From a virus, in the IMG/VR virus record IMGVR_UViG_3300037189_009513, positions 1 through 34,912 of that record: a stretch of DNA of 34,912 nucleotides; one strand, given 5' to 3'. Made by a program: the position numbers and the translations under genes. This document shows positions 10,526 to 34,912 of this stretch, piece by piece; the first letter of the stretch is position 1; the number at the start of each line of letters is the position of its first letter. Below the pieces are notes generated by a model that worked only from the letters and a program-made list of their open reading frames with translations, had not been told where the DNA came from and made no database searches.

Positions 10526-12364
10526 ATGGCGAATAAAAAAATATCGTATACAACTAGGGATTTCCAACAGATAAGAACTGAGTTAATAAATTTCACAAGA
10601 CTTTATTATCCTGAACTTATCGACAATTTTAATGATGCTTCAGTATTCTCCGCATTATTAGATTTAAATGCGGCGGTTACCGACAATCTACAATTTAATA
10701 TTGATAGAAGTATCCAAGAAACGGTACTACAATATGCACAACAAAGGTCATCAGTTTTTAATATCGCGAGAACTTATGGACTTAAAATTCCTGGTCAAAG
10801 ACCATCAGTTGCTCTTGTTGATTTTGCAATAACTGTACCCGCTTTTGGGGATAAAGAGGATTTAAGATATTGTGGTATTTTAAGAAGAGGAGCTCAAGTT
10901 AACGGTGCGGGTCAAGTATTTGAAACTGTATATGATATAGATTTTTCATCTGCAATAAATGCTGAGGGATATCCTAATAGACTTAAAATACCTAATTTTG
11001 ATTCGAATAATAAGTTATTAAATTATACTATTGTTAAAAGAGAAACAGTTGTAAACGGTGTTACTAAAGTTTTTAAACGAACAATTACCGCAAATGATAT
11101 TAAACCATTTTTTGAGATGTTCTTACCTGAAAAAAATGTTTTAGGTGTAACTAGCGTTTTATTAAAAGATGGTACACAATATGCTAATGTACCTTCACCA
11201 CAAGAATTTTTAGGTAACGATAATAGATGGTATGAAGTTAAAGCTCTTGTTGAAGATAGAGTTTTTGTGGAGGACCCGACCAAAGTGTCTGACCAACCTG
11301 GTATAAAAGTAGGAAAATATTTAACAACTAACACTAAATTTATAACTGAATACACACCTGAAGGATTTTTAAAAATGACGTTTGGTGGTGGTAGTCAGTC
11401 GGCAGATGAACAACTAAGAGAATTTGCAAGAAATGGTCTTAAACTTGATTTATATAAGTACTCTAACAATTTTGCGTTGGGTAGTGTCTTGAAACCAAAT
11501 AGTACTTTATTTGTACAATACAGAATTGGTGGAGGGTCTGGTAGTAACTTAGGTATTAATGTTATCACACAAGTAGGAACTGTTTCGTTTTATGTTAACG
11601 GACCATCAGCGTCTGTAAATACAACTGTTGTAAACTCACTATCTTGTAATAATGTTACCGCAGCAATTGGAGGAGCTCCCGCTCCAACAACAGAAGAGGT
11701 TAGGAATTTAGTGACTTTTAACTTCTCAGCACAGAACAGAGCGGTTACGGTAAACGACTACGACTCAATAATCAGAATGATGCCTTCTCAGTTTGGAGCT
11801 CCTGCTAAAGTCGCAATTACTGAAGAAAATAATAAAATAAAAATTAAGATGTTATCATACGATGAATCAGGTAATCTAACTGAAATTGTATCGAACACAC
11901 TTAAAAATAATATCGCAAATTATTTGTCTAATTACAGAATGTTAAATGATTATATATCTGTTGAAAGTGCTAACGTGATTGACTTAACTTTGAATATTGA
12001 TGTTGTTTTAGACAATAGTCAAACACAAGGTGCGTTAATTGCTCAAATTGTAAATTTAGTTACTGAATATTTCTCACCGACAAATAGACAGATGGGGGAA
12101 AACGTTTATATTTCTGAGATTAGAAGACAAATACAATCCCAAAACGGAGTTATCTCAGTGTCAGATATCCAAGTGTTTAATAAGGTTGGAGGACAATACT
12201 CGTCATCTCAAACATCTCAAGGATATGTTGATAATGATACTAAACAAATTGGTTTGATTGACGATACTATATTTGCCGAAGCTAGTCAGACATACCAAGT
12301 TAGGTATCCTAGTAAAGATATTAACATCAGAATTAAAAACCTATCTACAGTTAATTTCTCTTGA
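10526..12364 (+). CDS. 6: Baseplate wedge protein, T4 gp6 / J-like family (612 aa)
   Basis: This is a baseplate J/gp6-like wedge protein. The N-terminal segment (Y-T-T-R-D-F-Q-Q-I-R then Y-P-E-L-I-D-N-F) and the helix D-A-S-V-F-S-A-L-L-D-L-N-A-A-V-T-D-N are typical of gp6-like proteins. A beta-rich middle includes R-R-G-A-Q-V-N and V-F-E-T-V-Y-D-I-D-F. The later motif A-V-T-V-N-D-Y-D-S-I-I (about 408-418) corresponds to the 'AVT..DY..l' region conserved in gp6/J proteins. In T4, gp6 dimers form the iris-like ring that links the six wedges. It follows the gp25 homologue by 6 nt. No truncation is seen, though the length is at the larger end for J-like proteins. Confidence 0.88.
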   Translation: MANKKISYTTRDFQQIRTELINFTRLYYPELIDNFNDASVFSALLDLNAAVTDNLQFNIDRSIQETVLQYAQQRSSVFNIARTYGLKIPGQRPSVALVDFAITVPAFGDKEDLRYCGILRRGAQVNGAGQVFETVYDIDFSSAINAEGYPNRLKIPNFDSNNKLLNYTIVKRETVVNGVTKVFKRTITANDIKPFFEMFLPEKNVLGVTSVLLKDGTQYANVPSPQEFLGNDNRWYEVKALVEDRVFVEDPTKVSDQPGIKVGKYLTTNTKFITEYTPEGFLKMTFGGGSQSADEQLREFARNGLKLDLYKYSNNFALGSVLKPNSTLFVQYRIGGGSGSNLGINVITQVGTVSFYVNGPSASVNTTVVNSLSCNNVTAAIGGAPAPTTEEVRNLVTFNFSAQNRAVTVNDYDSIIRMMPSQFGAPAKVAITEENNKIKIKMLSYDESGNLTEIVSNTLKNNIANYLSNYRMLNDYISVESANVIDLTLNIDVVLDNSQTQGALIAQIVNLVTEYFSPTNRQMGENVYISEIRRQIQSQNGVISVSDIQVFNKVGGQYSSSQTSQGYVDNDTKQIGLIDDTIFAEASQTYQVRYPSKDINIRIKNLSTVNFS

Positions 12365-21289: not shown

Positions 21290-22195
21290 ATGGCAACAGG
21301 AACTTACGGAACAATAAGACCAGCGGACGTTTCACCTGAAGATGTTGATATAATTTTAAATTATACACCATCAAGGGATGAGACTAATAATTTTGTATTA
21401 ACTAAACTTGATGCAAAAACTTTATTACGACCTTATTTTAATAACACAAACACTGGTGGGTCAACGGTAGAAGTTTTAGGTGGTCTATATAACTTAACGT
21501 TACCTTCAGACCAATTCAATAAATTAGGGATATACACACTATATATTAGACCTGCACAAATAAGAACTACAATATTGGATTGTGGCGTTTTATCCTCATT
21601 ACCCAATGTTAGAGGTTTAGTTATTGATTTAAACTCAGTACCATCTGAATATAGAAATAAATTTATTAATCAAGGATTAGTAGGGTTTAGAATTGAATAT
21701 TTAAATACTGACGGTTCTAAAATCGCTAACTTTTTTAGAATAATAACCTCTTCATTTTTTTGTGAACCCATCGTACAAAATCTAACGAATACTTCACAAA
21801 AGGCAATTAGATATAGATATACTGAAAATAATACAAATTTAATTTTTTGTACATTATCACCATCTTCGGCACCGACTAACAAACCGAATTCAATACCATT
21901 TATTGGGCAACCAAACCAAAATATTGTAATAAGTAATACTTTCTTTAACCCAATCACATTAGATATTGAAGTTGCAGAACATGACTTCTCAACATTAGCA
22001 ATTGCGTTGTTTGGTAATCAGACTAAATCTATTGATGACGGTATCTACACATTATACGATACACAAAATAATATTTATAGACAATACAACCTTTATGAAA
22101 TTAGAGACCAATTTAATGAATTATTATTTGAGGTTAGACAAGATAGAGGTGATAATATTGATTTTAGTAAAAACTTTACAAACATAACACAATAA
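21290..22195 (+). CDS. Tail/baseplate structural protein, unknown family (301 aa)
   Basis: The ATG is 4 nt after the previous stop, and the TAA overlaps the next ATG by one base. The N-terminus (G-T-I-R-P-A-D-V-S-P-E-D-V-D-I-I) is reminiscent of short N-terminal segments that pack onto another wedge protein. The rest is a compact, beta-rich domain with few cysteines, ending Q-D-R-G-D-N-I-D-F-S-K-N-F. No signal peptide, membrane segment or enzymatic motif is seen. A virion role is inferred from its place between two tail proteins. Confidence 0.72.
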   Translation: MATGTYGTIRPADVSPEDVDIILNYTPSRDETNNFVLTKLDAKTLLRPYFNNTNTGGSTVEVLGGLYNLTLPSDQFNKLGIYTLYIRPAQIRTTILDCGVLSSLPNVRGLVIDLNSVPSEYRNKFINQGLVGFRIEYLNTDGSKIANFFRIITSSFFCEPIVQNLTNTSQKAIRYRYTENNTNLIFCTLSPSSAPTNKPNSIPFIGQPNQNIVISNTFFNPITLDIEVAEHDFSTLAIALFGNQTKSIDDGIYTLYDTQNNIYRQYNLYEIRDQFNELLFEVRQDRGDNIDFSKNFTNITQ

Positions 22196-25100
22196 TGGCG
22201 AATAAAAAATATACTTGTCCTCCACAATCTGCAACAGGTGCGGGTACTTTTTCTGACGACTTAGTTGGTTTACAATTAGTTGCTGGAGGAGGTCTAACTC
22301 AGGGTAACTTTGAGTTTGTCACGTCTGCGAATGAAAAAAGTAACAGGAATTTTATAACAGGTGTATTTTCAAACCCAATTAATTTAGATTCTATTGGTAT
22401 CACAAGTATCTTACAATCTAAAGCGATATTAGAAAATAATTTTAAAGTTTATCCTAATTTTGATTTAACTCAGGTAAATAATTTTACTTTGTATGGGTCA
22501 ATGGTTAAAAGGATGTCCGCATCCGTTACCAAAATCATTAGTTTTTTCCCTGCAGCAATTGAGTCGACATTTATGGGTATTAACTATGTGACGGGAGTTA
22601 CTGCTAATAATATCGTTTATAGTGAACAAAATGATTCGACAGTTTTCACATTAGATATTGCAAGACTTAGAAATCCGTTTGACGTTGACTTCACAAACAA
22701 CTCGACTAGAAATTTAGAACTTAAAGAAATTCAAGTATCTCCCTTAAGAGATATGAAAATACAATATGCAAAATACTCACTATTCTTTAAAGATAACGAG
22801 TATAAAGTAATTAATATTGTACCAACAGATAGTTTAACTAATGGTAATTTAGTATTAACTGTAAGTGGTAACCCATTTTCAGGTGAAACAATACTATTTG
22901 ATGATTTGGTTATAAGACCCAATGACCTTGAAGTTAATAGAGTTTTTAAAGAAATTTTTGATGAGGTTGAGCAATTTTTGTTAAATAGAAATGTCGCACC
23001 AAAATACACGTCAACATTCCAAATTCCTAGAGAAGCGGAAGACGGGAGTTATTATACACAAAGTCTAAATGTTACATGGCCATTATACGGTGCTTGGAAT
23101 ATCGACATATTAACTAAAGCCTTCGAAAGTTATATTACATCTTTGAATGATGTGAGTGAGTCTTTCGATGGGTATAAGACAAACTTAATCTCAAGATTTT
23201 TAACTACAGGGGCGTTTAAAGAATTTGACACCATAGGTCAAAAAATGGAGAAAGTATTACAAATCTATGGTAAAAGTTTTGACGACACAAAAAAATACAT
23301 AACCGCAATGTCTTTTATGACATCGGTTAATTATAATGTTGGAAATGATATTCCTTCACAGTTATTAAAAAATTTAGCACAAACTTTAGGTTGGACAACT
23401 AACATGTCACCAATATCAAATGATGAGTTATTATCATCTGTTTTTGGGTCAACTAAACAAAGTAAAAGTGATTTTTCAGGTATTTCAGAAGTACAAACAC
23501 CTGATGAACTTAATTACCAATATTTTAGAAACTTAATTTTAAATTCAGCCTTTTTATTTAAATCTAAAGGTACTCGTAAGTCAATTGAGATATTATTACG
23601 ACTTATAGGAGCTCCTGAAGCGTTAATTGATTTTAACGAGTATGTATATTTGGCCGACCAAAGAATAAATCTATCCCAATTTAATGAACAATTTGTACAG
23701 ATTTCAGGTGGTACTTATGTTGAAGATACTCCAATACTCGACCCTACAGATATATACTCAATATTTGGGGTTAGTTATACAGGGTTTACAACTAGTAACA
23801 CAATAAAAGACGTTAATATAACAATTGATGATTATCCGATGGATGAATTCGGATACCCATCAGCACCACCCGATAGTGAAAGTTACTTCTTCCAAAAAGG
23901 AAGTGGATGGTTTGAACAGACACCACAACATAGAGCTCCCGAGCAAGTTGATATTACTAACAATGTATTCGTAGGTAATAATCCTAACTATCAAACGGTA
24001 TTGGCTCCATATTCATATGGTCAAGAATACTTAAATCGTTTTAGAAAATTCCCATTTATGGATTTGGGTTATCAGTTAACTCCTGTAGTTGATAATAACA
24101 AAAGTTGGGTTGATAATGAAGTTGGTATCAGAACTAATTTAGATGGTAATTTTAACGCTAGATATTTTGTTGAGGACGACAGATTGGTTCTTAACGTTAA
24201 AAATGTTGACCTTTTCTTAAACCCCGCTCAAGGACTATCTTATGATGTTTGGGTAATGTCAAGAGAATATAATTACCCAATACCTAATCAAGGTATGAAT
24301 TATGTTCCACCAACATATTGTGACCCTAAACCATATAGTCCTTATCCTAGTCGAGGAGGTGTTGATTGGACTGAAATTATTCCATTACCTAAGAGAAAAA
24401 CTTTCTTTGAATTCGCCCAAACTTTTTGGGTTAATATGATTAATGTTAGGAATAGACAGTTCGCGACAAATGGTAAAACAGGTGGATATCCTACATTAGA
24501 ATCAATCTATTGGAGATATTTAGAATCACAACAAACAGTTAATATACCTAATGATAATTTTACGTATAAAACAATGATGGACTACGTAAATGGTTTAGGT
24601 GATTATTGGATTAGACTTGTTGAACAAATGGTGCCAGCGACTACTATATGGAACACTGGTATTAGATTAGAGAATTCAATATTCCACAGACAAAAATTTG
24701 TTTGGAGAAGACAAGAGGGATGTCAATTAGTACCAACCCCTTGTAAACCATGTTCATTGATTAGTAACATTTTCACATACGACTGTCCTATAGAGAGTGT
24801 AGAATGTGCAATTTATCCTTGGACTAACAATCCATTGATACAGAGTTTAAATGGGGTGTTAGGGGTTACATTACAATCTTACCTAACCGCAAATGGTTAC
24901 GCGTTAAATGATTGTGATTTTAACGGAATGACAACAGAATGGTTTGTTGACATTAGAGTTGATGATATTGTTGTTGTAAGTTACCCATTCTTTAATGGGG
25001 TTGGTTACAGTAGCCCAACATATAGTTCCCCTACAGTTAGTATGTGGGATATTGCTTTAGAAAATGCTTTAGAGAGTTTAAAAGATTACGGTTATGATTA

Positions 25101-25215
25101 TTATTTAACAGAAGAGAATACTGTTATAATTTATAATCAAGTATGTTCAGTTTCTGAACAAGGTGTTAATTTTAAATTAAATATAGGAATAAACTTTGAA
25201 ATATTATGTAATTAA
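22195..25215 (+). CDS. Large baseplate/tail protein with fibre-connector-like middle (1006 aa)
   Basis: The ATG overlaps the previous stop (TAATG). The N-terminal third is beta-rich. A helical middle, about 300-490, includes T-G-A-F-K-E-F-D-T-I-G and Y-F-R-N-L-I-L-N-S-A-F-L-F-K-S-K-G-T-R-K. It then runs through S-I-E-I-L-L-R-L-I-G-A-P-E-A-L-I, a pattern typical of tail-protein-I/gp7-like baseplate wedge components. After a beta-rich region there is a Cys cluster (C-x6-C-x2-C, then two more Cys, about 843-870), followed by a C-terminal domain with repeated short beta strands. It is probably a large wedge protein supporting the adhesin encoded next. The family assignment is tentative. Confidence 0.72.
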   Translation: MANKKYTCPPQSATGAGTFSDDLVGLQLVAGGGLTQGNFEFVTSANEKSNRNFITGVFSNPINLDSIGITSILQSKAILENNFKVYPNFDLTQVNNFTLYGSMVKRMSASVTKIISFFPAAIESTFMGINYVTGVTANNIVYSEQNDSTVFTLDIARLRNPFDVDFTNNSTRNLELKEIQVSPLRDMKIQYAKYSLFFKDNEYKVINIVPTDSLTNGNLVLTVSGNPFSGETILFDDLVIRPNDLEVNRVFKEIFDEVEQFLLNRNVAPKYTSTFQIPREAEDGSYYTQSLNVTWPLYGAWNIDILTKAFESYITSLNDVSESFDGYKTNLISRFLTTGAFKEFDTIGQKMEKVLQIYGKSFDDTKKYITAMSFMTSVNYNVGNDIPSQLLKNLAQTLGWTTNMSPISNDELLSSVFGSTKQSKSDFSGISEVQTPDELNYQYFRNLILNSAFLFKSKGTRKSIEILLRLIGAPEALIDFNEYVYLADQRINLSQFNEQFVQISGGTYVEDTPILDPTDIYSIFGVSYTGFTTSNTIKDVNITIDDYPMDEFGYPSAPPDSESYFFQKGSGWFEQTPQHRAPEQVDITNNVFVGNNPNYQTVLAPYSYGQEYLNRFRKFPFMDLGYQLTPVVDNNKSWVDNEVGIRTNLDGNFNARYFVEDDRLVLNVKNVDLFLNPAQGLSYDVWVMSREYNYPIPNQGMNYVPPTYCDPKPYSPYPSRGGVDWTEIIPLPKRKTFFEFAQTFWVNMINVRNRQFATNGKTGGYPTLESIYWRYLESQQTVNIPNDNFTYKTMMDYVNGLGDYWIRLVEQMVPATTIWNTGIRLENSIFHRQKFVWRRQEGCQLVPTPCKPCSLISNIFTYDCPIESVECAIYPWTNNPLIQSLNGVLGVTLQSYLTANGYALNDCDFNGMTTEWFVDIRVDDIVVVSYPFFNGVGYSSPTYSSPTVSMWDIALENALESLKDYGYDYYLTEENTVIIYNQVCSVSEQGVNFKLNIGINFEILCN

Positions 25216-28200
25216 TGTCTTGTCAATTAAGTGCAATTATTGGAGGGTTAACAGGGGGTTGTCTTAATACAGACTCAGGAGCCTTTACAGTTGACATATT
25301 AAACGGTGCCCCTGGGTATACCGTTAATTGGATAAATCCACCCTACGGGAGTTTCTCAACTAGTGGAGATTTCACAGTAACTAATTTATCTGCGGGTACT
25401 TATTCATTCTCAATTACCGATTCCTGTATCCCTGTTAATGAATCTGTAATAGTTAATGTCAATATATCCTCAGGGACTTGTGTGAGTTTAACAAGTATTC
25501 AGAACACTACTTGCGGATTAAATAACGGAGGTGTCACTGCAACAACTACAAATTTTTACGGTACGGGTAAGTTTTATTTGTATGAAATGGATAGTGGGTA
25601 CATTACTTCCGCAACCACTTTTAATAATTTCTATGGTTTTGATAATTTATCACCTGGAGTTTATTACGTTATCGCTGATGATGGAGGAGGTTGTACAGGT
25701 AAAACTGAAAGTTGTTTTGTTTTAGAATCCAAGGTTATAGACGTTAATCTATATGTAGTAAACGCCTCGTCTTGTGCCCCAAATACAGGTGCGATTTATG
25801 TAACAGGTGTTACAGGGACCCCACCATTTACTTACTCTTGGAATACAACTCCCGTACAAACAACTTCTTTCATTACAGGACTAACAGTTGGTAATTATAT
25901 TTTAACTGTGACAGATGATACAGGTTGTATTGTAAGTAAAGGAGTAACAATATCTGCCGAATCCCCTTTAGGACTATTTGATATTTCATATACTAATCCT
26001 AGTTGTTTTTCTTCCGATGGAACGGTTACTATAACCGCGTCAGGAGGGACATCACCCTATCAATATGTAGGGTCTAATGGACAAATTGATACAACTTTTA
26101 GTAATACTAATACATTTTATAATTTACCTGCGGGATTTTTTACAGTTGTTGTAAAAGACGCGGGAAACTGTACCTTCACCGCAACCACAAGTTTATTAAC
26201 TGCGGGAGGATTGAGTATTACATCAGTAAACGTAATAAACTCAACATGTAGTGGTAATGGTGGTCAGATTAGTGTAACTATATTTGGAGGCTCGGCACCT
26301 TATGTTTATACATTAACAGATTCATTAGGTAGTAATACGATAGTTAGCGGAGGATTTACTAATTGGACATTCAACGGACTTACATCAGGGTCATACACAT
26401 TAAGTATAACTGATGAAGGTCCTTGTGATTTTAGACAAACTTATGAAGTTGAAAATAATGTTTTGTTTGAATTAGATATTGAAACTACAGGTACTACATG
26501 TAACCAAGAAGACGGTTCTGTGTTACTATCGATAACATCAGGAGGTACCGCACCATTTCATTATGAGATAGACGGGTATTCAGACTTTTCAAACGATTTA
26601 GAGTTTTCATATACTAATTTACCAAGTGGTAATTATGTTGCAACAGTTACAGACGCTAACTATTGTCAACAACAATTACCATTCACGATTGATGGTTCAT
26701 TTAACACGGATTTCTTGTTAATTGGTACTGATTCATTAGATGGTAATAATGGAACAATTAGTGCGTTAATTACAGATGGTGAACCACCATTTACATTAAC
26801 TTGGAGTCCAAATGTCGGAACTCAAACAGGAACTGAGATTATTGGTTTAAGTGCTGGTACATATACCTTAACAGTTGTTGACGACAATGGATGTTCCCAA
26901 ACTAGAACTATTGTTATAAATGGTTTTAACAAATTATCATCATATCAAGTTTACAATTTATGTGAAAGTGATTTTGTTAGTAACGGTGAGACAGGCAGGA
27001 AAGGACCTCAGGAAATGTTAATTGAAGGGTTCCACGATTTAACAAGTGGAGACACTAATTGTATATTGAACCAATCGATTTTTACCGTATCAACAACGGT
27101 AAATGGTGATGTGAAAACACAATCATTTTATACGGGTACGACATTAACAGAATTCCCATCTGACAATGAATTTTATGATGTGGTAGAAGAATTGTTGTTA
27201 AGTTATGGAATCATTGGAGAAGTTGTTATTGACGCGGTTAAGAATACTTTATTCATTAATAGCAGTTGTGATATAACAATGGAAACTTTAGACGCTCAAA
27301 TCAAAGTTGGGTTAGATATTTCTTATGATATTAATTGTGAAATTTGCGACACCGAGTGTAGTGGTTTTACTTTAACCGCGGTTAATTGCAGAGGTTGTAC
27401 CAACCCAACGTTTGAATGGACTAATTGTGATACGGGGTTAGAGGAAACATATACTATCATAGAATCGGAAATAGTTAGAATTTGCTCTATTACAGTACCC
27501 ATAGTACTTAGTGGTGACGGAAATGTTTTAGGAACAGGTATTTGTAGTCCATTACCCACCTCAACGCCAACCCCAACACCAACTCAAACACCTACTCAAA
27601 CACCAACTCAAACACCAACGCCTACACCAACACCAACACAAATACCCGTCGCAAGATTTGGTGGTGGTTTTGGCTCAACAATTAATGCTTTTGGAACAGT
27701 ATCTATCCCATCAGGGGCTATTAGACTTACGGGAGTACCTAACGATACTCTCACTATAGAGGTAACTTGGCCATCCTTAAACTCAATGGCGGGAACAACC
27801 GTCATAAATTCAATAACTTTAACGGAAAATGTAACATCAACATTTACGGTTACTTTAGATTCTTTAGGTTATGGTGAATTAACAGGAACATCTAGTAGAG
27901 TAGGAACAATTGTTTATGGTCAAAAATTAATGAGATTTAAAATAATTTCTTCATCAGGGTCGAACCCAATAAATCTTGGGTCCTCAGCAATTTTTAGAGT
28001 TGTTGCCCAACCAACTGGAGGGGTGACATTACCAGGTAGTATTACTAACTACACAAGTAGTAGTACTTCATGTTCAAGTATCACCGCCCAAACATCTTAT
28101 GTAATGACCACTGCAACACCACCTACTGTTGGTAGTTATCTATATGATAATACTTATCCTGCAACAGGAACCCCTATTAATGGTGGAAATAATTGGATTT

Positions 28201-28301
28201 CAGTGTGGGGATTTGGATGTGCGGATTTCACTAGCCCAACAAATAAATATTCATTACAGGTGAGCCCTACAGGTGAAATATTAGATGTCGTACCTTGTTA
28301 A
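25215..28301 (+). CDS. SprB-repeat adhesin-like tail fibre with Thr-Pro linker (1028 aa)
   Basis: About seven tandem SprB-like repeats of roughly 75-90 residues fill residues 1-575. Each has an N-terminal Cys, a G-G-T-x-P-Y/F-x-Y-x-W core and an end such as L-x-x-G-x-Y-x-x-x-V-x-D-x-x-G-C. Examples are G-T-P-P-F-T-Y-S-W-N with L-T-V-G-N-Y-I-L-T-V-T-D-D, and D-G-E-P-P-F-T-L-T-W-S with L-S-A-G-T-Y-T-L-T-V-V-D-D. A Cys-rich domain follows (about 576-775). A Thr-Pro/Thr-Gln-Pro linker covers about 781-811. The last domain (about 812-1028) is Gly/Ser/Thr-rich and beta-like, and could be the receptor-binding tip. SprB repeats are known from Bacteroidota gliding adhesins. Its start overlaps the previous stop (TAATG), and it is the last gene of the operon, as expected for a fibre. 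Confidence 0.8.
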   Translation: MSCQLSAIIGGLTGGCLNTDSGAFTVDILNGAPGYTVNWINPPYGSFSTSGDFTVTNLSAGTYSFSITDSCIPVNESVIVNVNISSGTCVSLTSIQNTTCGLNNGGVTATTTNFYGTGKFYLYEMDSGYITSATTFNNFYGFDNLSPGVYYVIADDGGGCTGKTESCFVLESKVIDVNLYVVNASSCAPNTGAIYVTGVTGTPPFTYSWNTTPVQTTSFITGLTVGNYILTVTDDTGCIVSKGVTISAESPLGLFDISYTNPSCFSSDGTVTITASGGTSPYQYVGSNGQIDTTFSNTNTFYNLPAGFFTVVVKDAGNCTFTATTSLLTAGGLSITSVNVINSTCSGNGGQISVTIFGGSAPYVYTLTDSLGSNTIVSGGFTNWTFNGLTSGSYTLSITDEGPCDFRQTYEVENNVLFELDIETTGTTCNQEDGSVLLSITSGGTAPFHYEIDGYSDFSNDLEFSYTNLPSGNYVATVTDANYCQQQLPFTIDGSFNTDFLLIGTDSLDGNNGTISALITDGEPPFTLTWSPNVGTQTGTEIIGLSAGTYTLTVVDDNGCSQTRTIVINGFNKLSSYQVYNLCESDFVSNGETGRKGPQEMLIEGFHDLTSGDTNCILNQSIFTVSTTVNGDVKTQSFYTGTTLTEFPSDNEFYDVVEELLLSYGIIGEVVIDAVKNTLFINSSCDITMETLDAQIKVGLDISYDINCEICDTECSGFTLTAVNCRGCTNPTFEWTNCDTGLEETYTIIESEIVRICSITVPIVLSGDGNVLGTGICSPLPTSTPTPTPTQTPTQTPTQTPTPTPTPTQIPVARFGGGFGSTINAFGTVSIPSGAIRLTGVPNDTLTIEVTWPSLNSMAGTTVINSITLTENVTSTFTVTLDSLGYGELTGTSSRVGTIVYGQKLMRFKIISSSGSNPINLGSSAIFRVVAQPTGGVTLPGSITNYTSSSTSCSSITAQTSYVMTTATPPTVGSYLYDNTYPATGTPINGGNNWISVWGFGCADFTSPTNKYSLQVSPTGEILDVVPC
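27555..27648 (+). repeat. Thr-Pro/Thr-Gln-Pro coding tract with 12-nt units
   Basis: ACTCAAACACC occurs at 27582-27592, 27594-27604 and 27606-27616, a 12-nt period (Thr-Gln-Thr-Pro). It is flanked by ACA/CCA-type TP codons. The synonymous codons differ slightly between units (CCT, CCA, ACG). It encodes the linker of the SprB-repeat adhesin. Confidence 0.9.
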
Positions 28302-28358: not shown

Positions 28359-28961
28359 TTAATTCCAAAGATTTTCTTGGTTCATATAACCTAGTACACA
28401 ACAATATGCGTCAGTCATATCAAAGTTTTCTTTCTTTAAGGTATTATTTCTAGTATGAACCCAAGTTATTTGAGGTTCTCTTTTAGCTACTAAATCCCAA
28501 ATAATTTGTTTCTTATCACAATCTTTAGGATAACCACCAAATAACACAAACTTACCTTTATCGTTTTGTTGAACCAAAATAGGAAATGCCGACTTTCTTG
28601 AATTATAAGTTGAGATGTATTCAGGTACTATTCCTAATACATCATATATTTCTTTAGTAATTAATGTATTAAACCTCATTAGAGTTTGTATTGTGTATAC
28701 ATTATTACTATTCATTAAAGGTTCTTCAATAACGACTTTAGTAATACCTAAATTTTTATATTGAATAAGTTTACCTCTAAATATTTCACTCTTTAAAAGT
28801 AACTCCTTTATTTTATTTTCTTGTTTTGGTTTAGGTACAGGTGAAACGTGAGTCAGCTCTAATAACTCTTTAGTTTCAATATCGAATAACGCCCAACCAA
28901 TAGTTTTGGTTGAAACGTCTAACCCCAATACTTTTGGGGATTTTTCCATAGATTTTCTCAT
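28359..28961 (-). CDS. RuvC-like RNase H-fold nuclease, probable Holliday junction resolvase (200 aa)
   Basis: The fold is read from the acidic motifs. These are D15 in L-G-L-D-V-S-T-K-T-I-G-W-A (strand 1 plus a glycine turn), E79/E80 in K-V-V-I-E-E-P-L (strand 4) and the C-terminal D181/D184 in F-D-M-T-D-A-Y-C-C-V-L-G-Y. They match the RuvC/poxvirus-A22-type arrangement. A role in resolving recombination or packaging branches is inferred. An upstream TTG (28973) is possible, but ATG 28961 is preferred because it gives stop TAA, one base, then ATG relative to the fibre gene upstream, i.e. tight coupling. Finding it in a fibre operon is unusual. It could instead be an endonuclease of related fold. 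Confidence 0.82.
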   Translation of the reverse strand: MRKSMEKSPKVLGLDVSTKTIGWALFDIETKELLELTHVSPVPKPKQENKIKELLLKSEIFRGKLIQYKNLGITKVVIEEPLMNSNNVYTIQTLMRFNTLITKEIYDVLGIVPEYISTYNSRKSAFPILVQQNDKGKFVLFGGYPKDCDKKQIIWDLVAKREPQITWVHTRNNTLKKENFDMTDAYCCVLGYMNQENLWN

Positions 28962-28962
28962 G

Positions 28963-31491
28963 TTAGATGTCAAATTTAATCAAAAATTGTTGAATACCCT
29001 GTCTTAATACAGGTGACTGCATTTTTGATATAATCATAAGATTTTTGTTAGAATCGTAAAGACCAATTTCAGTTAGATAAGATGGAGAACCTTGAGTCCA
29101 TGTAGGATTTGAAGTTGCTTTGAATTCCGCCTGACTTAAATTTATCTTATATTTCATTTCATAAATTGTTGCTTGAATATCAGTTTCTAATGAACCATAG
29201 AAATAATATTCGTCACCAAAATTTAAAGATGACCCCGTATAACCAACAGGTGTTAATGGAATATAATTATTTAAGTTATACGTTGACGCATTTTCATATA
29301 AGTCTTCAGTAATAACAAATGTAGTACTTGTTAACGATTCCTCAGTTATATATCCGTTAACCAATAAATTTGAAATTTGGTCTGTGAAATCAATAATCTT
29401 CCACTCCGAAGAATTAGGACGACCATTACCATCAACCTTTTGACATATAATTTCGAATTTATCAGCGTAAAAACCTGAAACCACATCACAACCTATTGGA
29501 CAAGTAGTAGTTGTTGTTATAATTGGGTCAAATGTTGTAGTACTTGTTGTAATTGGGTCAAATGTTGTTGTGGTTGTTGTTGGACTATATTCAGGTCTTA
29601 AACAAGTGAATTCGGCACCGAATCTAACCGCAACATTCTGAGAAGGTTGAGGGTTACAGGTGATGTTAGGACCTTCCATTACCGTGTAATAATTACAATG
29701 TAACGAGTTAGTAAATGTTGCGGTATTACTTAATCTATAAGTAATGTGCATATATTGAGATGAACCTGTTAAAACACCTGTTAATGAATTATTATCATTA
29801 CCACAAGTGTTTGGAGTTACTAAAGAAAGTTTAGGTGCGGGTAACGTCCAATTCCTATTGGATTTATACGACATTGCCGCGATAACTTCCTCGTCATCAA
29901 TAATTATTATTTTAGAGTCAGGGAAAACTTTACCAATTCTATTTGGTAAGTTATTCGAATTTCTATTAGTATCCCACAAATGGTAATATCTAATACCTGG
30001 GGAATTCATATCGATATTCTTAGTTGATTGTATATATTGAACTTGGAATAAATCTAAATCCTCAAACTCAGGTGGGTCAACCCAAAAAGTTTCCCCTAAA
30101 CAACATTCAGGGTTTTTATGCCACATTAACCAAGGAATGTGTAACTTAAAGTTTCTTGCTTGACCTGTAGTATCCGAAGGGTTTGAAACATCAAATGGTT
30201 CGAATGCGAATTTTTCACCATAGAAGAAATCAACCGTTTGATTTGTGTAATGAATTACCGCGATTGCTTTTTGTTCTTCAGGGGTAACAGTTACGATATC
30301 ACCTAAAGAATCATAATGATAAACATAACTACTATCAGTTTGACCACTACTAGAAGCGTAACCAAAATATTCTTTAGTTCCTAAGTATTGTTTCGAACCA
30401 AAATTAGTATAATCTTTATTAATTGATGAGAAAAGACCCGCAGGGTTTTCTGACCACGGAATATTCATGTTCCATACTTTTACATCAAATTCATCAGTAT
30501 AACAAACCGATTCATAGTTAATTACATTATCTCTCCAATGAGGACGAGGTGTAATTGAGTCATACATTGTTTGCATATTTGGAGGGTATACAACCATTCT
30601 CGCATAACAATCAGAAGATAAATTAGAAAAATCAGGTGTTGGTCTATCTAAAGTGATTTCACCTAAACATACTGATGTTATTCTATATGTTAACATTGAA
30701 TAACAACTACTAATAGAGGTTAAACAATCTGGCGGTGGTAATGGAGGACAAGCTCTACTTGGTGTTGGTGTTGGACAAAAAGTTGCCGATAGTGATGGTG
30801 TAGGTGTTGGTGTTTCACAAGTGAATGACTTAGATGGTGTAGGAGTTGGCGTAGGGGTCGATGTATTATTACTTGCAGTTATACTAGGTGTAACTGTCAT
30901 TGTAGGTGTCGGTGACGGTGTTGGTACATTAGAACATGTGTTGTTATATAAACCTTTACCATCATAAAAAATAGTTACGATATCCCCAACTGAAGGTTCT
31001 CTAAAAGAAACACCATTAGACACTAATATTGGGGTGATAACGTTAGTCCCATTTAGGGAGTTCATTTTAACCGAATAATTTGCGTTGATTGCGTACAAAT
31101 CATTAGTTATTGCACTCCAAGACGTTGTTTCGGCGGTTGTATTCCCTGTAAAGAATCCCCTCATCGCGGCTCTATTATAAACAGGGCTAACTATAGAATC
31201 CATAAAAGGAATTCCATAAGTGTTACCCGTAAAACCATCAACATAGTAAGGATATTTTATGTTTTCCTTATTAGATTGAGGAGAACCACTTGAATTTTGA
31301 GCATTAAAGTTTGGCTCAAGTATCACAGTATCAAATTGGTTGTATGATAATGGTAGGGTATTATATGAAACTTCACTATCCCCAATTTGGAAATAAGAAA
31401 TATTAAAATTACCTTGTGATAATTTTTGTCTACCTGCGTCAGTTAATCTTGTATTTATTAACCCAGATGTATTTTTAATAATGTAACCCAT
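28963..31491 (-). CDS. Tail-fibre-like protein with Thr/Pro-rich linkers (842 aa)
   Basis: The N-terminus L-I-N-T-R-L-T-D-A-G-R-Q-K-L-S-Q-G (10-26) followed by F-Q-I-G-D-S-E-V is the pattern seen in phage tail-fibre and baseplate connector proteins. A Thr/Pro/Ser-rich segment (about 189-250) contains several T-P-T-P-T-P runs and Cys residues. A beta-rich middle follows. A second low-complexity stretch (about 640-668) has the unit T-T-T-F-D-P-I twice. The end S-Y-L-T-E-I-G-L-Y-D-S-N-K-N resembles a conserved fibre/baseplate C-terminal domain. The ATG lies 4 nt after ATATTTATA on the coding strand. It is followed, after 1 nt, by the RuvC-like gene. The TP stretches would be extended and are candidate O-glycosylation sites. 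Confidence 0.78.
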   Translation of the reverse strand: MGYIIKNTSGLINTRLTDAGRQKLSQGNFNISYFQIGDSEVSYNTLPLSYNQFDTVILEPNFNAQNSSGSPQSNKENIKYPYYVDGFTGNTYGIPFMDSIVSPVYNRAAMRGFFTGNTTAETTSWSAITNDLYAINANYSVKMNSLNGTNVITPILVSNGVSFREPSVGDIVTIFYDGKGLYNNTCSNVPTPSPTPTMTVTPSITASNNTSTPTPTPTPSKSFTCETPTPTPSLSATFCPTPTPSRACPPLPPPDCLTSISSCYSMLTYRITSVCLGEITLDRPTPDFSNLSSDCYARMVVYPPNMQTMYDSITPRPHWRDNVINYESVCYTDEFDVKVWNMNIPWSENPAGLFSSINKDYTNFGSKQYLGTKEYFGYASSSGQTDSSYVYHYDSLGDIVTVTPEEQKAIAVIHYTNQTVDFFYGEKFAFEPFDVSNPSDTTGQARNFKLHIPWLMWHKNPECCLGETFWVDPPEFEDLDLFQVQYIQSTKNIDMNSPGIRYYHLWDTNRNSNNLPNRIGKVFPDSKIIIIDDEEVIAAMSYKSNRNWTLPAPKLSLVTPNTCGNDNNSLTGVLTGSSQYMHITYRLSNTATFTNSLHCNYYTVMEGPNITCNPQPSQNVAVRFGAEFTCLRPEYSPTTTTTTFDPITTSTTTFDPIITTTTTCPIGCDVVSGFYADKFEIICQKVDGNGRPNSSEWKIIDFTDQISNLLVNGYITEESLTSTTFVITEDLYENASTYNLNNYIPLTPVGYTGSSLNFGDEYYFYGSLETDIQATIYEMKYKINLSQAEFKATSNPTWTQGSPSYLTEIGLYDSNKNLMIISKMQSPVLRQGIQQFLIKFDI
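29521..29568 (-). repeat. 30-nt-period direct repeat encoding TTTFDPI units
   Basis: AATTGGGTCAAATGTTGT occurs at 29521-29538 and 29551-29568, giving a 30-nt period. On the coding strand this is a 10-residue unit ending F-D-P-I, set in Thr-rich low-complexity sequence of the 842-aa fibre protein. Confidence 0.88.
30741..30930 (-). repeat. Thr-Pro-rich coding tracts in the 842-aa fibre gene
   Basis: GGTGTTGGTGTTGG-type sequence (e.g. 30761-30774, 30901-30928) encodes T-P-T-P-type linkers on the minus strand. The tract mirrors the one at 27555-27648 but lies in the opposite orientation. Confidence 0.8.
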
Positions 31492-31517: not shown

Positions 31518-32948
31518 TTATGATGTTATTACTGTACAACAATTACATCCTGTTATTTTTAAATTAGATAAACTATATGATTCATCACTAGTACCTACAT
31601 AACAATTAATGAATTCATTTCTTGTAACCGTTGTCTCTGTTACAATTTTAAAATTGTTAGTGTTATTAATTGTAATTGAATCCCAAACCTCATTCTTAGA
31701 TGTTAACCAAACATTTTCTGATTGACATCCCGCAACTGTGTTTATAATACTATCATCATTTGATGATGTAGAGGATGGGAAGTATTCTATATCGTCAATA
31801 GTAAGTACAGTCACCGTATTTACAGATGACGACTCCCGATTAGGTGATGATTTAGAAAGATTTAGGTGATTTAATTTAAACGTAAGATACACACCATCAG
31901 GTAACGAAGGGGTTACTGAAATGGTTGTAATATATTGTTTAGTTAATGTTGTTTTATTGGCTTCGACTGTTGAAGGTGACGTAACTAATTTAACATTATA
32001 AGTTATTGGTTGAGAAGGAGAATCTAAGGAAATTGTATTACTAACAATTTTACCTGACCTATCTGAAACAATTACGTTATATGTTCCTGAACATAAGTTG
32101 CTAAACATAGGTATATTTCGATATGTTAATCCACCATTAATCGAATAAGAATATGGTGTATACCCTCCACTCGCCTTAATGGTTAAACCACCATCACAAC
32201 CACAAATTGTTTGGTTTTTAGTAACTAATACTGTTAGAGGTTGAATATCGTCTTCACCATCCCCAAATCTTAAACTATTACCAAAAATTCCGACTTCAGG
32301 AGTACAAGGACCCTCATACACTATAACACTTCCTGTCCCACCCAAAATAAACCAACCACCATAGATTGGTGGATATGTTGGGTTTGAATTGAAGATAGTA
32401 TAGGTTGTTGGAGTTGATGCAGAAACTTTCCATTGAGATAACGATGAATCCCAATAAACTGTTTGACTCGAATCATTTGATATCCAAGAAGGTTTTGAAT
32501 TATACAATCCATTTGGAGAAAAATCTATTTGAGTTTGATTATACACCCCACCTTTAAGTATATTAGTTACCATACATAAATCGTAAGTAATATAGGGTGA
32601 TGTCGGTGTTGGTGTAGGTGTTGGGGAAGGTGTTGGTGTTGACCCTGTTAAAATACATTCGGTATTAGCGGTAAAATCACCATACGAATCAATAACGGTA
32701 GATTTATAAACACCCGCGGTTAAATTGTAAATCACTGGTGATATGTTACCATTATCCCAAGTTATATAATACGGTGGAGTACCACCTGTAATAATTAAAG
32801 ATATAGAACCATCCGAAGATGATGGGGAAGGGTGAGTTAATGAACACTCAACACCCATGGGAAATAAAGTTATAGGTTCGCACTCATTTGTAAACTCAGG
32901 AATTATTGGTTTAGATATAGGAGTTGGTGTTGGAAACGAATACGTCAT
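31518..32948 (-). CDS. SprB-repeat / Thr-Pro-rich adsorption-apparatus protein (476 aa)
   Basis: It starts F-P-T-P-T-P-I-S. The first SprB-like unit (about 34-101) contains S-D-G-S-I-S-L-I-I-T-G-G-T-P-P-Y-Y-I-T-W-D, then L-T-A-G-V-Y. A Thr-Pro linker follows (about 103-116). The next domain (about 117-235) has a Gly-rich end, and a second SprB-like unit (about 240-305) contains D-G-G-L-T-I-K-A-S-G-G-Y-T-P-Y-S-Y-S-I. The C-terminal domain ends with a Cys cluster (G-C-N-C-C). Signal peptide and transmembrane helices are absent, consistent with a virion protein, not a secreted one. The glycosyltransferase gene lies upstream and the tail-fibre gene follows it in the same direction, 26 nt downstream. 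It may be a second fibre or a fibre accessory. Confidence 0.75.
   Translation of the reverse strand: MTYSFPTPTPISKPIIPEFTNECEPITLFPMGVECSLTHPSPSSSDGSISLIITGGTPPYYITWDNGNISPVIYNLTAGVYKSTVIDSYGDFTANTECILTGSTPTPSPTPTPTPTSPYITYDLCMVTNILKGGVYNQTQIDFSPNGLYNSKPSWISNDSSQTVYWDSSLSQWKVSASTPTTYTIFNSNPTYPPIYGGWFILGGTGSVIVYEGPCTPEVGIFGNSLRFGDGEDDIQPLTVLVTKNQTICGCDGGLTIKASGGYTPYSYSINGGLTYRNIPMFSNLCSGTYNVIVSDRSGKIVSNTISLDSPSQPITYNVKLVTSPSTVEANKTTLTKQYITTISVTPSLPDGVYLTFKLNHLNLSKSSPNRESSSVNTVTVLTIDDIEYFPSSTSSNDDSIINTVAGCQSENVWLTSKNEVWDSITINNTNNFKIVTETTVTRNEFINCYVGTSDESYSLSNLKITGCNCCTVITS
32597..32646 (-). repeat. Thr-Pro linker tract in the 476-aa protein
   Basis: GGTGTTGGTGTAGGTGTTGG-type sequence encodes alternating T-P/S-P dipeptides on the minus strand, between the first SprB-like unit and the following domain. 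It is the third TP tract of the region. Confidence 0.85.
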
Positions 32949-32994
32949 GAACTCAAATGTTTTGTTTTAGTTTTTCTTTTAATAAATACCCTTG

Positions 32995-33972
32995 TTACTG
33001 AAAATTTACTACTCTTTTCATAATATCAATGTATTTTCTAGTTGCACTATCTGACTCGATGTATTCAAAAAAATTAATATCTGATTTTAATTTTTCTAAA
33101 GGGTTAACATTAATGAAATCACCCTTAAAAAATTTTTTATCTTTTAAGTCTTGAGTAACTCCTGCCATATGTAATATGGGATGTTTTTCATAAGTATCGA
33201 TTGAATCAGTTGCCCAAGAAAAACTTAAGTCATTAACGACTTTAGTCTCTATCCCGAAATACCAAAGATTCCATAATAATGACCACATTTCTGCAGTCCA
33301 AAATTGTATCTCGCCAGGACTAATTGGGAATCTTTTTTGGTAATCTAACATTTGGTCATACAACGGAGCACAATCGTAGTAGATTTTAAACCATAATTCC
33401 CAAGGAGTATTTTTAATAATATATTGACCCCCACCTGAATTTTTTTGATTATCTTTAACTTCATCGATAGTTAAACCAACTACATCTACCATTTCTTGTA
33501 AAAGTTGAAATTTTTCAGACTCAGGGTGTTTAGATTCATATCTATCACAACAACTTGCAATATAATCATAACCAATATAACCTATAGTATCAGAAAGATA
33601 TGTTACATCGTCATTTAATAATTTATCAAAATCGGGTAACTTTCTAAAAATAATATCAGCATCATGTAAGAAAAAACATTTACCATGTTCAGGATTTTCT
33701 TCTAACCACTTATAAATCAGAAAAGGTTTAATACTTGGGATATAATGTTTTTTTTGTCTATCATCTAAATAATGATGTACATTAATCCCAAGGTCCCCAA
33801 GTTCCAAAGACTCCTTAGTCGGTTCAGTATTACCCTGAACCATCCCAAAAATTACATGAATTTTACTTGGGTCAATACCTAAATCAATAAAATTTTGCGA
33901 ATAAACTCTAACCTGCCAGTGAAAATATGGAACGTCAGGTTGCGCCGTGACAAATACTAAATCTTCTTTCAT
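32995..33972 (-). CDS. GT-A-fold glycosyltransferase, resembling plant Hyp/Ser O-glycosyltransferases (325 aa)
   Basis: This is a putative nucleotide-sugar-dependent glycosyltransferase. It has an N-terminal strand (L-V-F-V-T-A-Q-P-D) and a helix with P-F-L-I-Y-K-W-L. The D-x-D-type metal/donor site is H-D-A-D-I-I-F (103-109). An acceptor region follows: G-G-G-Q-Y-I-I (180-186), W-T-A-E-M-W (225-230) and P-I-L-H-M-A-G (265-271). The order D-A-D, GG-x-Y-I-I, W-x-A-E-M and H resembles the hydroxyproline arabinosyltransferase / peptidyl-serine galactosyltransferase type (HPAT/SERGT), from general knowledge only. No signal peptide or membrane helix is seen, so it probably acts in the cytoplasm. 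Being the first minus-strand gene before the Thr/Pro-rich fibre genes suggests that fibre proteins are the acceptors. Host surface glycans or phage DNA are possible alternatives. Confidence 0.7.
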   Translation of the reverse strand: MKEDLVFVTAQPDVPYFHWQVRVYSQNFIDLGIDPSKIHVIFGMVQGNTEPTKESLELGDLGINVHHYLDDRQKKHYIPSIKPFLIYKWLEENPEHGKCFFLHDADIIFRKLPDFDKLLNDDVTYLSDTIGYIGYDYIASCCDRYESKHPESEKFQLLQEMVDVVGLTIDEVKDNQKNSGGGQYIIKNTPWELWFKIYYDCAPLYDQMLDYQKRFPISPGEIQFWTAEMWSLLWNLWYFGIETKVVNDLSFSWATDSIDTYEKHPILHMAGVTQDLKDKKFFKGDFINVNPLEKLKSDINFFEYIESDSATRKYIDIMKRVVNFQ

Positions 33973-34262: not shown

Positions 34263-34912
34263 TTAAGCTATCTCATAGCTACCGTTAAATTGTAAACTAT
34301 CAAGATTACCCCAAGTAAAAGGAATATTTGCCGTTAACGCTCCTGATGGAGATGCCGTTGTAATAATGGATGATTTATCCACCGCACCTGTATAAGTACC
34401 ATTAACAATTCCTGTGTACCAATTAACCCCATTATCTAATATAGAACAAGGTAATTGTACACCATCTGGAGATGCGGCATTTACGGGTAAACTAAATCTC
34501 CAATCGCCATTACCCCCACTAGTGGTTGTTCCCCAATTTAATTTAACTCTAACAAATGCAGTTTTTCCAATTACTTTATAATATCCCGTTATGGTACCAT
34601 CACCTATAACTGGTTGTGGACTACTTTGTGATGTCCAAGATACACTATATGATGTCCAAGCGGAATCTATTTGTGAACCAGCAAGATTAAATGTTGTTGC
34701 AGATATTGATGACCCTGAAAACGCACCATCAGCACGAACAAATGATGTTGTTGTTCCTGCGGCATTTACACCCTCAAAAACGTTTGTGACGTTATCCGCA
34801 TTTCCTGTTCCATTTTTAACACTTAACGGACCTAATGTAGAATTAGTGGTTATTTCGGGTGTTACCGAATTATTATATGCTTGTTGGAGTGTTGTTGTAG
34901 ATAAACCACATG
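34263..34912 (-). CDS. C-terminal part of a fibre-like virion protein (at least 216 aa, 5' end outside the window)
   Basis: The minus-strand frame is open from the window edge to the TAA at 34265-34263, with no start inside the window. The visible part begins L-S-T-T-T-L-Q-Q-A-Y-N-N-S-V-T-P-E-I, followed by T-L-G-P-L-S-V-K-N-G-T-G and V-N-A-A-G-T-T-T-S-F-V-R-A-D-G. This is the layout of tail-fibre shafts in which the 'LQQAYNNS' start precedes beta-helical or collagen-like parts. Then comes a beta-sandwich-like domain (S-Y-S-V-S-W-T-S-Q; G-Y-Y-K-V-I-G-K-T-A-F-V-R-V-K-L), ending Q-F-N-G-S-Y-E-I-A. This C-terminal domain could be receptor-binding. It lies convergent to the 58-aa gene. Confidence 0.75.
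   Translation of the reverse strand, partial: CGLSTTTLQQAYNNSVTPEITTNSTLGPLSVKNGTGNADNVTNVFEGVNAAGTTTSFVRADGAFSGSSISATTFNLAGSQIDSAWTSYSVSWTSQSSPQPVIGDGTITGYYKVIGKTAFVRVKLNWGTTTSGGNGDWRFSLPVNAASPDGVQLPCSILDNGVNWYTGIVNGTYTGAVDKSSIITTASPSGALTANIPFTWGNLDSLQFNGSYEIA

Follow-up and report, generated by a model that had tools for sequence, protein, structure and literature searches.

Co-occurrence of a putative phage glycosyltransferase family with poly-threonine tracts suggests that some phages glycosylate their own virion proteins

Introduction

Phage glycosyltransferases that modify DNA or polymers of the host surface are well known. Both DNA and host serotype targets have been discussed (PMC12619734), and a passage of the same source, citing Freeman et al. 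2023, describes the capsid and tail-tube subunits of mycobacteriophages as glycosylated at their C-termini. As that passage describes it, the mycobacteriophage system resembles the one considered here in that a phage-associated glycosylation affects the C-terminal ends of capsid and tail-tube proteins, here predicted from genes. On the same passage, the statement in an earlier sequence-only reading of this DNA that no phage system of this kind had been described was too strong. A search of the open-licence literature found no paper on poly-threonine (poly-Thr) or threonine-rich phage tails with glycosylation.

The two systems differ in several respects. Proteins gp108–gp110 of mycobacteriophage Che8 match Pfam families of the GT2/GT25 type, unlike the glycosyltransferase (GT) examined here, which belongs to the family phrog_4417, and the profile of the phrog_4417 GT family did not match gp108–gp110. 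Homology to the mycobacteriophage virion glycosyltransferases was, therefore, rejected. The Che8 glycosyltransferase genes lie far from the structural genes, whereas the phrog_4417 GT genes of several Bacillota phages lie within structural clusters, and neither the capsid nor the tail proteins of Che8 have the poly-Thr tail found in phages with this GT. Hence, the phrog_4417 GT is a separate enzyme family with a proposed acceptor tag of its own and would, by analogy, reach a mycobacteriophage-like end by another route.

The glycosyltransferase and its family

The stretch of DNA analysed (the window) is an IMG/VR virus record of 34,912 bases. The ORF at 32995..33972 on the minus strand encodes a putative protein O-glycosyltransferase of 325 aa, and its residues 7–321 align with positions 3–291 of the 293-position phrog_4417 profile (PHROGs, E 4.9e-73), making it a full-length member. 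Neither PHROGs nor the phage annotations examined assign a function to phrog_4417, and the 325 aa protein matched no Pfam or NCBIfam family and, either as a single sequence or as a family profile, no PDB sequence. Profile searches also gave no match to any DNA- or LPS-modifying family, an outcome that would have told against the sequence-only reading. GTs of the phrog_4417 type are conserved at 80 loci of IMG/VR, in 74 records of phages and at 36 loci of bacterial genomes, and the family spans lactococcal, lactobacillus, enterococcal, staphylococcal, many bacillus-group and uncultured Bacteroidota-type phages. Relatives in Lactococcus, Lactobacillus and Enterococcus bear the name 'prophage pi2 protein 34'.

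Four motifs had been picked out from the sequence, and all four are found in this ORF with their key residues invariant in an alignment of 52 family members that share 35–87 % identity with the window protein. The first, HDAD (residues 103–106; 33655..33666, minus strand), includes the invariant D104 and D106 of a DxD motif as in GT-A enzymes, and we take it to be the probable metal and nucleotide-sugar site by comparison with these enzymes in general. It is followed by GGGQYII (residues 180–186; 33415..33435, minus strand; G180, G181 and Q183 invariant), WTAEMW (residues 225–230; 33283..33300, minus strand; all six residues invariant) and a C-terminal H-x-A-G motif (residues 268–271; 33160..33171, minus strand; H268, A270 and G271 invariant).

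An AlphaFold2 model of the 325 aa protein (mean pLDDT 96.2, pTM 0.92) has a Rossmann-like alpha/beta fold, and the nearest solved structures found with Foldseek were the catalytic domains of UGGT (GT24), glycogenin (GT8), xyloside xylosyltransferase 1 and ABO-type enzymes (GT6), with E values of ~1e-6 to 1e-5, TM scores of ~0.4–0.6, ~10 % identity and a probability of 1.00 to GT24/GT8/GT6. On its predicted structure the product is, therefore, a GT-A-like glycosyltransferase, which bears out the fold proposed from the motifs. Glycogenin, the UGGT catalytic domain and xyloside xylosyltransferase 1 are its closest solved folds; they share the GT-A fold with a DxD motif and several of them act on proteins. 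However, at these TM scores and this identity, with no sequence-level match to Pfam or PDB entries, GT8 (CAZy) is a structural neighbour only. Enzymes of the GT8, GT24 and GT6 families use UDP-sugars with a retaining mechanism, and these modelled neighbours give only a hint at the donor sugar of the phage GT. The resemblance to plant GT95 enzymes that had been proposed is faint: one distant member of the 52 matched the Pfam HPAT family over residues 59–233 (E 0.0058), with 16.5 bits against a curated cut-off of 23.9.

Gene neighbourhood in the window

Two genes follow the GT on the same strand. The nearer encodes a 476 aa protein (31518..32948, minus strand) with SprB-type repeats (E 1.6e-9) and a Thr-Pro (TP) run at residues 104–115. 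The next encodes an 842 aa putative structural protein of the fibre region (28963..31491, minus strand), in which Thr/Ser-Pro linkers occupy residues 191–232 (30796..30921, minus strand) with runs starting at residues 191, 212 and 227. A 1028 aa adhesin encoded convergently (25215..28301, plus strand) includes five stretches of SprB repeats (E 2.3e-19) and TP runs at residues 784 and 800 (linker 784–807). The linkers are, thus, present in all three proteins to which the sequence-only reading had assigned them, and no other window ORF of at least 100 aa contains three or more consecutive (T/S)P units. SprB-type repeats are known from Flavobacterium gliding adhesins, and those in the 1028 and 476 aa proteins give a hint, from sequence, that the host of the window phage belongs to the Bacteroidota.

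A RuvC-like resolvase (28359..28973, minus strand; phrog_159, E 5.5e-10) marks the end of the conserved gene block, and its position recurs in relatives. An arrangement in which the GT is followed by one or two Thr/Pro proteins, a protein of ~830 aa and then RuvC was found in most of the 80 IMG/VR relatives and is, therefore, not due to chance. The synteny with the GT and a poly-Thr pattern described below make the 842 aa protein the best candidate substrate in the window. As its predicted model gave no PDB fold match, it is solely from its position near baseplate-type genes, such as that for the baseplate wedge (10526-12364, phrog_219), that we infer a virion role. Searches of 50,697 phage records gave no relative of either this protein or that encoded at 22195-25215. 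For the 842 aa family, at least 471 related loci were found in IMG/VR, on contigs of up to 322 kb and, judged from these matches, the family marks a large group of uncultured phages. Upstream of the GT, at 34263-34910 (minus strand), the translation read by eye resembles part of a fibre- or spike-like protein that continues past the end of the window.

A poly-Thr tract of the 842 aa family tracks the glycosyltransferase

The 842 aa protein contains a second type of tract, SPTTTTTTFDPITTSTTTFDPIITTTTTCP (residues 636–665), that had been missed in the sequence-only reading. It encloses the poly-Thr tract TTTTTTFDPITTSTTTFDPIITTTTT (residues 638–663; 29503..29580, minus strand), which is the proposed glycosylation site and is probably unstructured, the predicted model having a pLDDT of <50 here. 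In order to compare the two types of tract, 99 distinct homologues of the protein were sorted by presence of the GT, giving 62 distinct homologues with the GT and a class without it made up of 26 homologues with at least 6 kb of upstream sequence. A run of five or more threonines was present in 58/62 of the former and 0/26 of the latter, in which the longest run was of three or fewer, whereas TP linkers were present in 57/62 and 25/26, respectively. Fisher tests, which treat the loci as independent and ignore their relatedness, gave 1.9e-18 for poly-Thr and p 0.67 for the linkers. Since the linkers occur alike with and without the GT, they are not the tracked substrate, and going by these sequences it is poly-Thr and not Thr-Pro that matters in this protein. 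The tract is an insertion at a single site (window residues ~637–664) that is missing from the GT-less homologues examined. When the entire records of the GT-less class, which may be fragments, were searched, no GT was found.

The single clear exception is L262, which has the GT and no run of five or more threonines anywhere in the locus; perhaps the tract was lost recently or the acceptor is a different one. Three further phages with the GT have such a run in a neighbouring protein rather than in the 842 aa homologue, and isolated TTTTT or TTTTTT runs were seen in other proteins of 7/26 GT-less loci. A relative of the GT is also found in Chryseobacterium phage MA9V-3, in which two proteins encoded upstream contain poly-Thr tracts internally.

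Capsid and tail proteins of other phages

GT homologues that are ~30–38 % identical lie in clusters of structural genes in phages of Enterococcus, Lactobacillus, Lactococcus and Staphylococcus. In these Bacillota phages poly-Thr takes the form of C-terminal tails, e.g. GTTTTTTKPTTTTTTTQA, on the major capsid protein and the major tail protein. When diverse loci were scanned, nearly all had poly-Thr tracts near the GT, and apparent exceptions with low tract scores were mostly explained by short tails or truncated contigs. Among the 36 bacterial genome loci, which were found with the family alignment, all (36/36) include poly-Thr tails on proteins of the structural cluster, mostly on both the major capsid and the major tail protein. 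Among the short tails behind the apparent exceptions, that of the bIL285 tail protein ends in KTTTTTTTTTRHD and that of 1706 in TTTTTTTTTTHHD, and the end of the LP65 protein is Thr-rich. In phiFL2B, the product of the major tail protein gene that adjoins the GT ends in NGTTTTTSTTTTTTSSTTTTTTTQASSK.

In order to retrieve homologues independently of tail or GT, searches were performed with the bodies of four capsid and tail proteins, with the tails excluded. For the L100 capsid, 56 loci include both GT and tail and 13 neither, and two tailed loci are on contigs that end ~100 bases past the query match. The L143 capsid family includes 26 loci with both and 23 with neither, and among its Lacticaseibacillus capsids, which are ~97 % identical, those without the GT end in AKVLIPKP and those with it end in AKVLVPGKTTTTTTSHG. 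For the L437 capsid there were five loci with both and 48 with neither; some of the GT-containing members came from the GT-based genome scan, in which the state of the tail was not a selection criterion. The L099 tail protein family contributed three loci with both and 15 with neither, one of the latter encoding a protein that is 91 % identical. Wherever both GT and tail could be read, none of the loci in the four families was discordant.

Relatedness was allowed for with trees from which the tract columns or tails had been excluded. In the Bacteroidota-type family the GT label changes at least five times on supported branches, and poly-Thr changes with it in ~4/5 independent pairs, with none in the opposite direction. 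The four Bacillota families gave 1, 1, 5 and 2 supported independent concordant changes and no opposite ones. Taken one at a time, no family gives a significant sign test on these changes and, when all families are pooled as independent, the result is ~13/13 (p near 2e-4).

The tag is also shared between unrelated proteins. The sequence GTTTTTTKPTTTTTTTQA terminates two unrelated proteins, an HK97-type capsid protein (L100) and a major tail protein (L099), and tail endings in the same genome were alike in 22/89 pairs compared with a mean of 3.7 and a maximum of 11 in 1,000 shuffles. The threonine codons within the runs are mixed (ACA 162, ACT 122, ACC 63 and ACG 50), indicating that selection acts on the protein and not on a DNA repeat; an origin of poly-Thr as a DNA-repeat artefact was, hence, rejected.

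Interpretation

In a very diverse set of phages the GT occurs almost exclusively beside poly-Thr proteins of the virion region, and this distribution suggests self-glycosylated particles. As the enzyme is placed with putative fibre-region, capsid and tail proteins, virion proteins are its likely target on gene context. We consider it very probable that the phage GT O-glycosylates poly-Thr tracts in virion proteins encoded by the phage itself, a reading that draws on the predicted fold, the conserved putative catalytic residues and the close co-occurrence of the GT gene with this candidate acceptor motif. A soluble phage GT would presumably take a sugar from a nucleotide sugar and transfer it, in a presumptive O-linkage, to the threonine hydroxyls of flexible, low-complexity poly-Thr tracts. 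The transfer would probably occur in the cytosol, on subunits, before or during assembly. The most likely acceptor in the window would be the tract at residues 638–663 of the 842 aa neighbour; in phages of the Bacillota, this role would fall to the C-terminal tails of the major capsid protein and the major tail protein. It is also fairly likely that a single soluble GT reads a portable homopolymeric threonine tag that unrelated virion proteins of Bacillota and Bacteroidota phages have acquired (two capsid architectures, the tail tube, connector-region and fibre-region proteins), so producing a mucin-like glycan coat, with GT and tag gained and lost as a unit.

The sequence-only reading had the phage glycosylating its own fibre linkers. 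Virion proteins as the likely target stand on the comparative evidence, but the Thr-Pro linkers as the substrate do not. An enzyme that acts on alternating Thr-Pro, like the plant hydroxyproline/serine O-glycosyltransferases, would suit the abundance of such linkers beside the GT in the window and in many relatives, as well as the weak HPAT match. However, it is unlikely given that GT-less relatives retain the linkers (25/26) and not poly-Thr (0/26), which led us to reject the linkers as substrate, and that four phages with the GT (L277, L285, L305 and L308) have poly-Thr and no TP run. The candidate acceptors in Bacillota phages are likewise poly-Thr, at times with KP, AP or QP breaks, and not TP repeats. 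A prolyl hydroxylase (PF13640), which the sequence-only reading had proposed to look for, is absent from 6/7 large records with the GT and was rejected as a partner.

A target outside the virion, such as phage DNA, a cell-wall polymer of the host or a receptor, with the place in the structural operon due to chance, would be in keeping with the familiar phage glycosyltransferases noted above. We regard this as very unlikely, as it leaves unexplained both the joint gain and loss of the GT with poly-Thr tails on unrelated structural proteins and the joint difference of the two traits between ~97 % identical capsids, and the GT sequence matched no family that modifies DNA or LPS. Alternatively, tails and GT could be functionally unlinked passengers on one recombining DNA segment. 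In the L143 and L100 types the GT gene is directly 3′ of the gene for the tailed capsid, and where the genes are adjacent one recombination could bring in both. In the L437 type, however, the tailed capsid gene is six genes upstream of the GT and a tailed tail-tube gene is adjacent. The tag is also found on non-homologous Bacillota proteins and internally in a different Bacteroidota-type protein, and the mixed threonine codons point to selection at the protein level, all of which makes a passenger origin very unlikely.

Glycosylation of poly-Thr would provide a testable function for the unannotated phrog_4417 GT family and implies that capsids, tails or fibres are glycosylated in phages that are already in culture, among which phiFL1A, phiFL2B, bIL285, 1706, CHPC836 and MA9V-3 carry the GT. 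The GT together with a poly-Thr tract would be a sequence rule for spotting glycosylated virions from DNA and, if confirmed, the pair would constitute a natural system for protein O-glycosylation in the bacterial cytosol. If poly-Thr is indeed the acceptor, transfer is expected to a poly-Thr peptide such as TTTTTTKPTTTTTTT and not to TPTPTPTPTP.

Further observations

In phiFL2B (GenBank accession number GQ478085.1), gp49 (L003:6001-6909) is labelled 'major tail protein' and is the GT homologue. The label appears to be shifted by one gene, as, from its sequence, gp48 looks like the poly-Thr-tailed tail protein. In the herelleviruses Bacchae (L004), SAC12B (L093) and LP65 (L094), the GT lies beside genes for small proteins with a Thr-rich C-terminus and not beside capsid genes, and in two of the three the sequence is of a looser Thr-rich type (TTVKPTTVAP, TETQTQTQAK). 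The LP65 protein with the Thr-rich C-terminus, encoded two genes from the GT, is annotated 'structural protein 2-D,MS'. One large phage with the GT (the record of L019) encodes a 2OG-Fe(II) oxygenase at G040:C1:6467-6772 (PF13640, E 3e-17). The C-terminus of the L173 capsid protein includes a duplicated unit, TTTTTTKPTTTTTTTTTTKPTTTTTTTQA, and this sequence suggests that poly-Thr tails grow by duplication.
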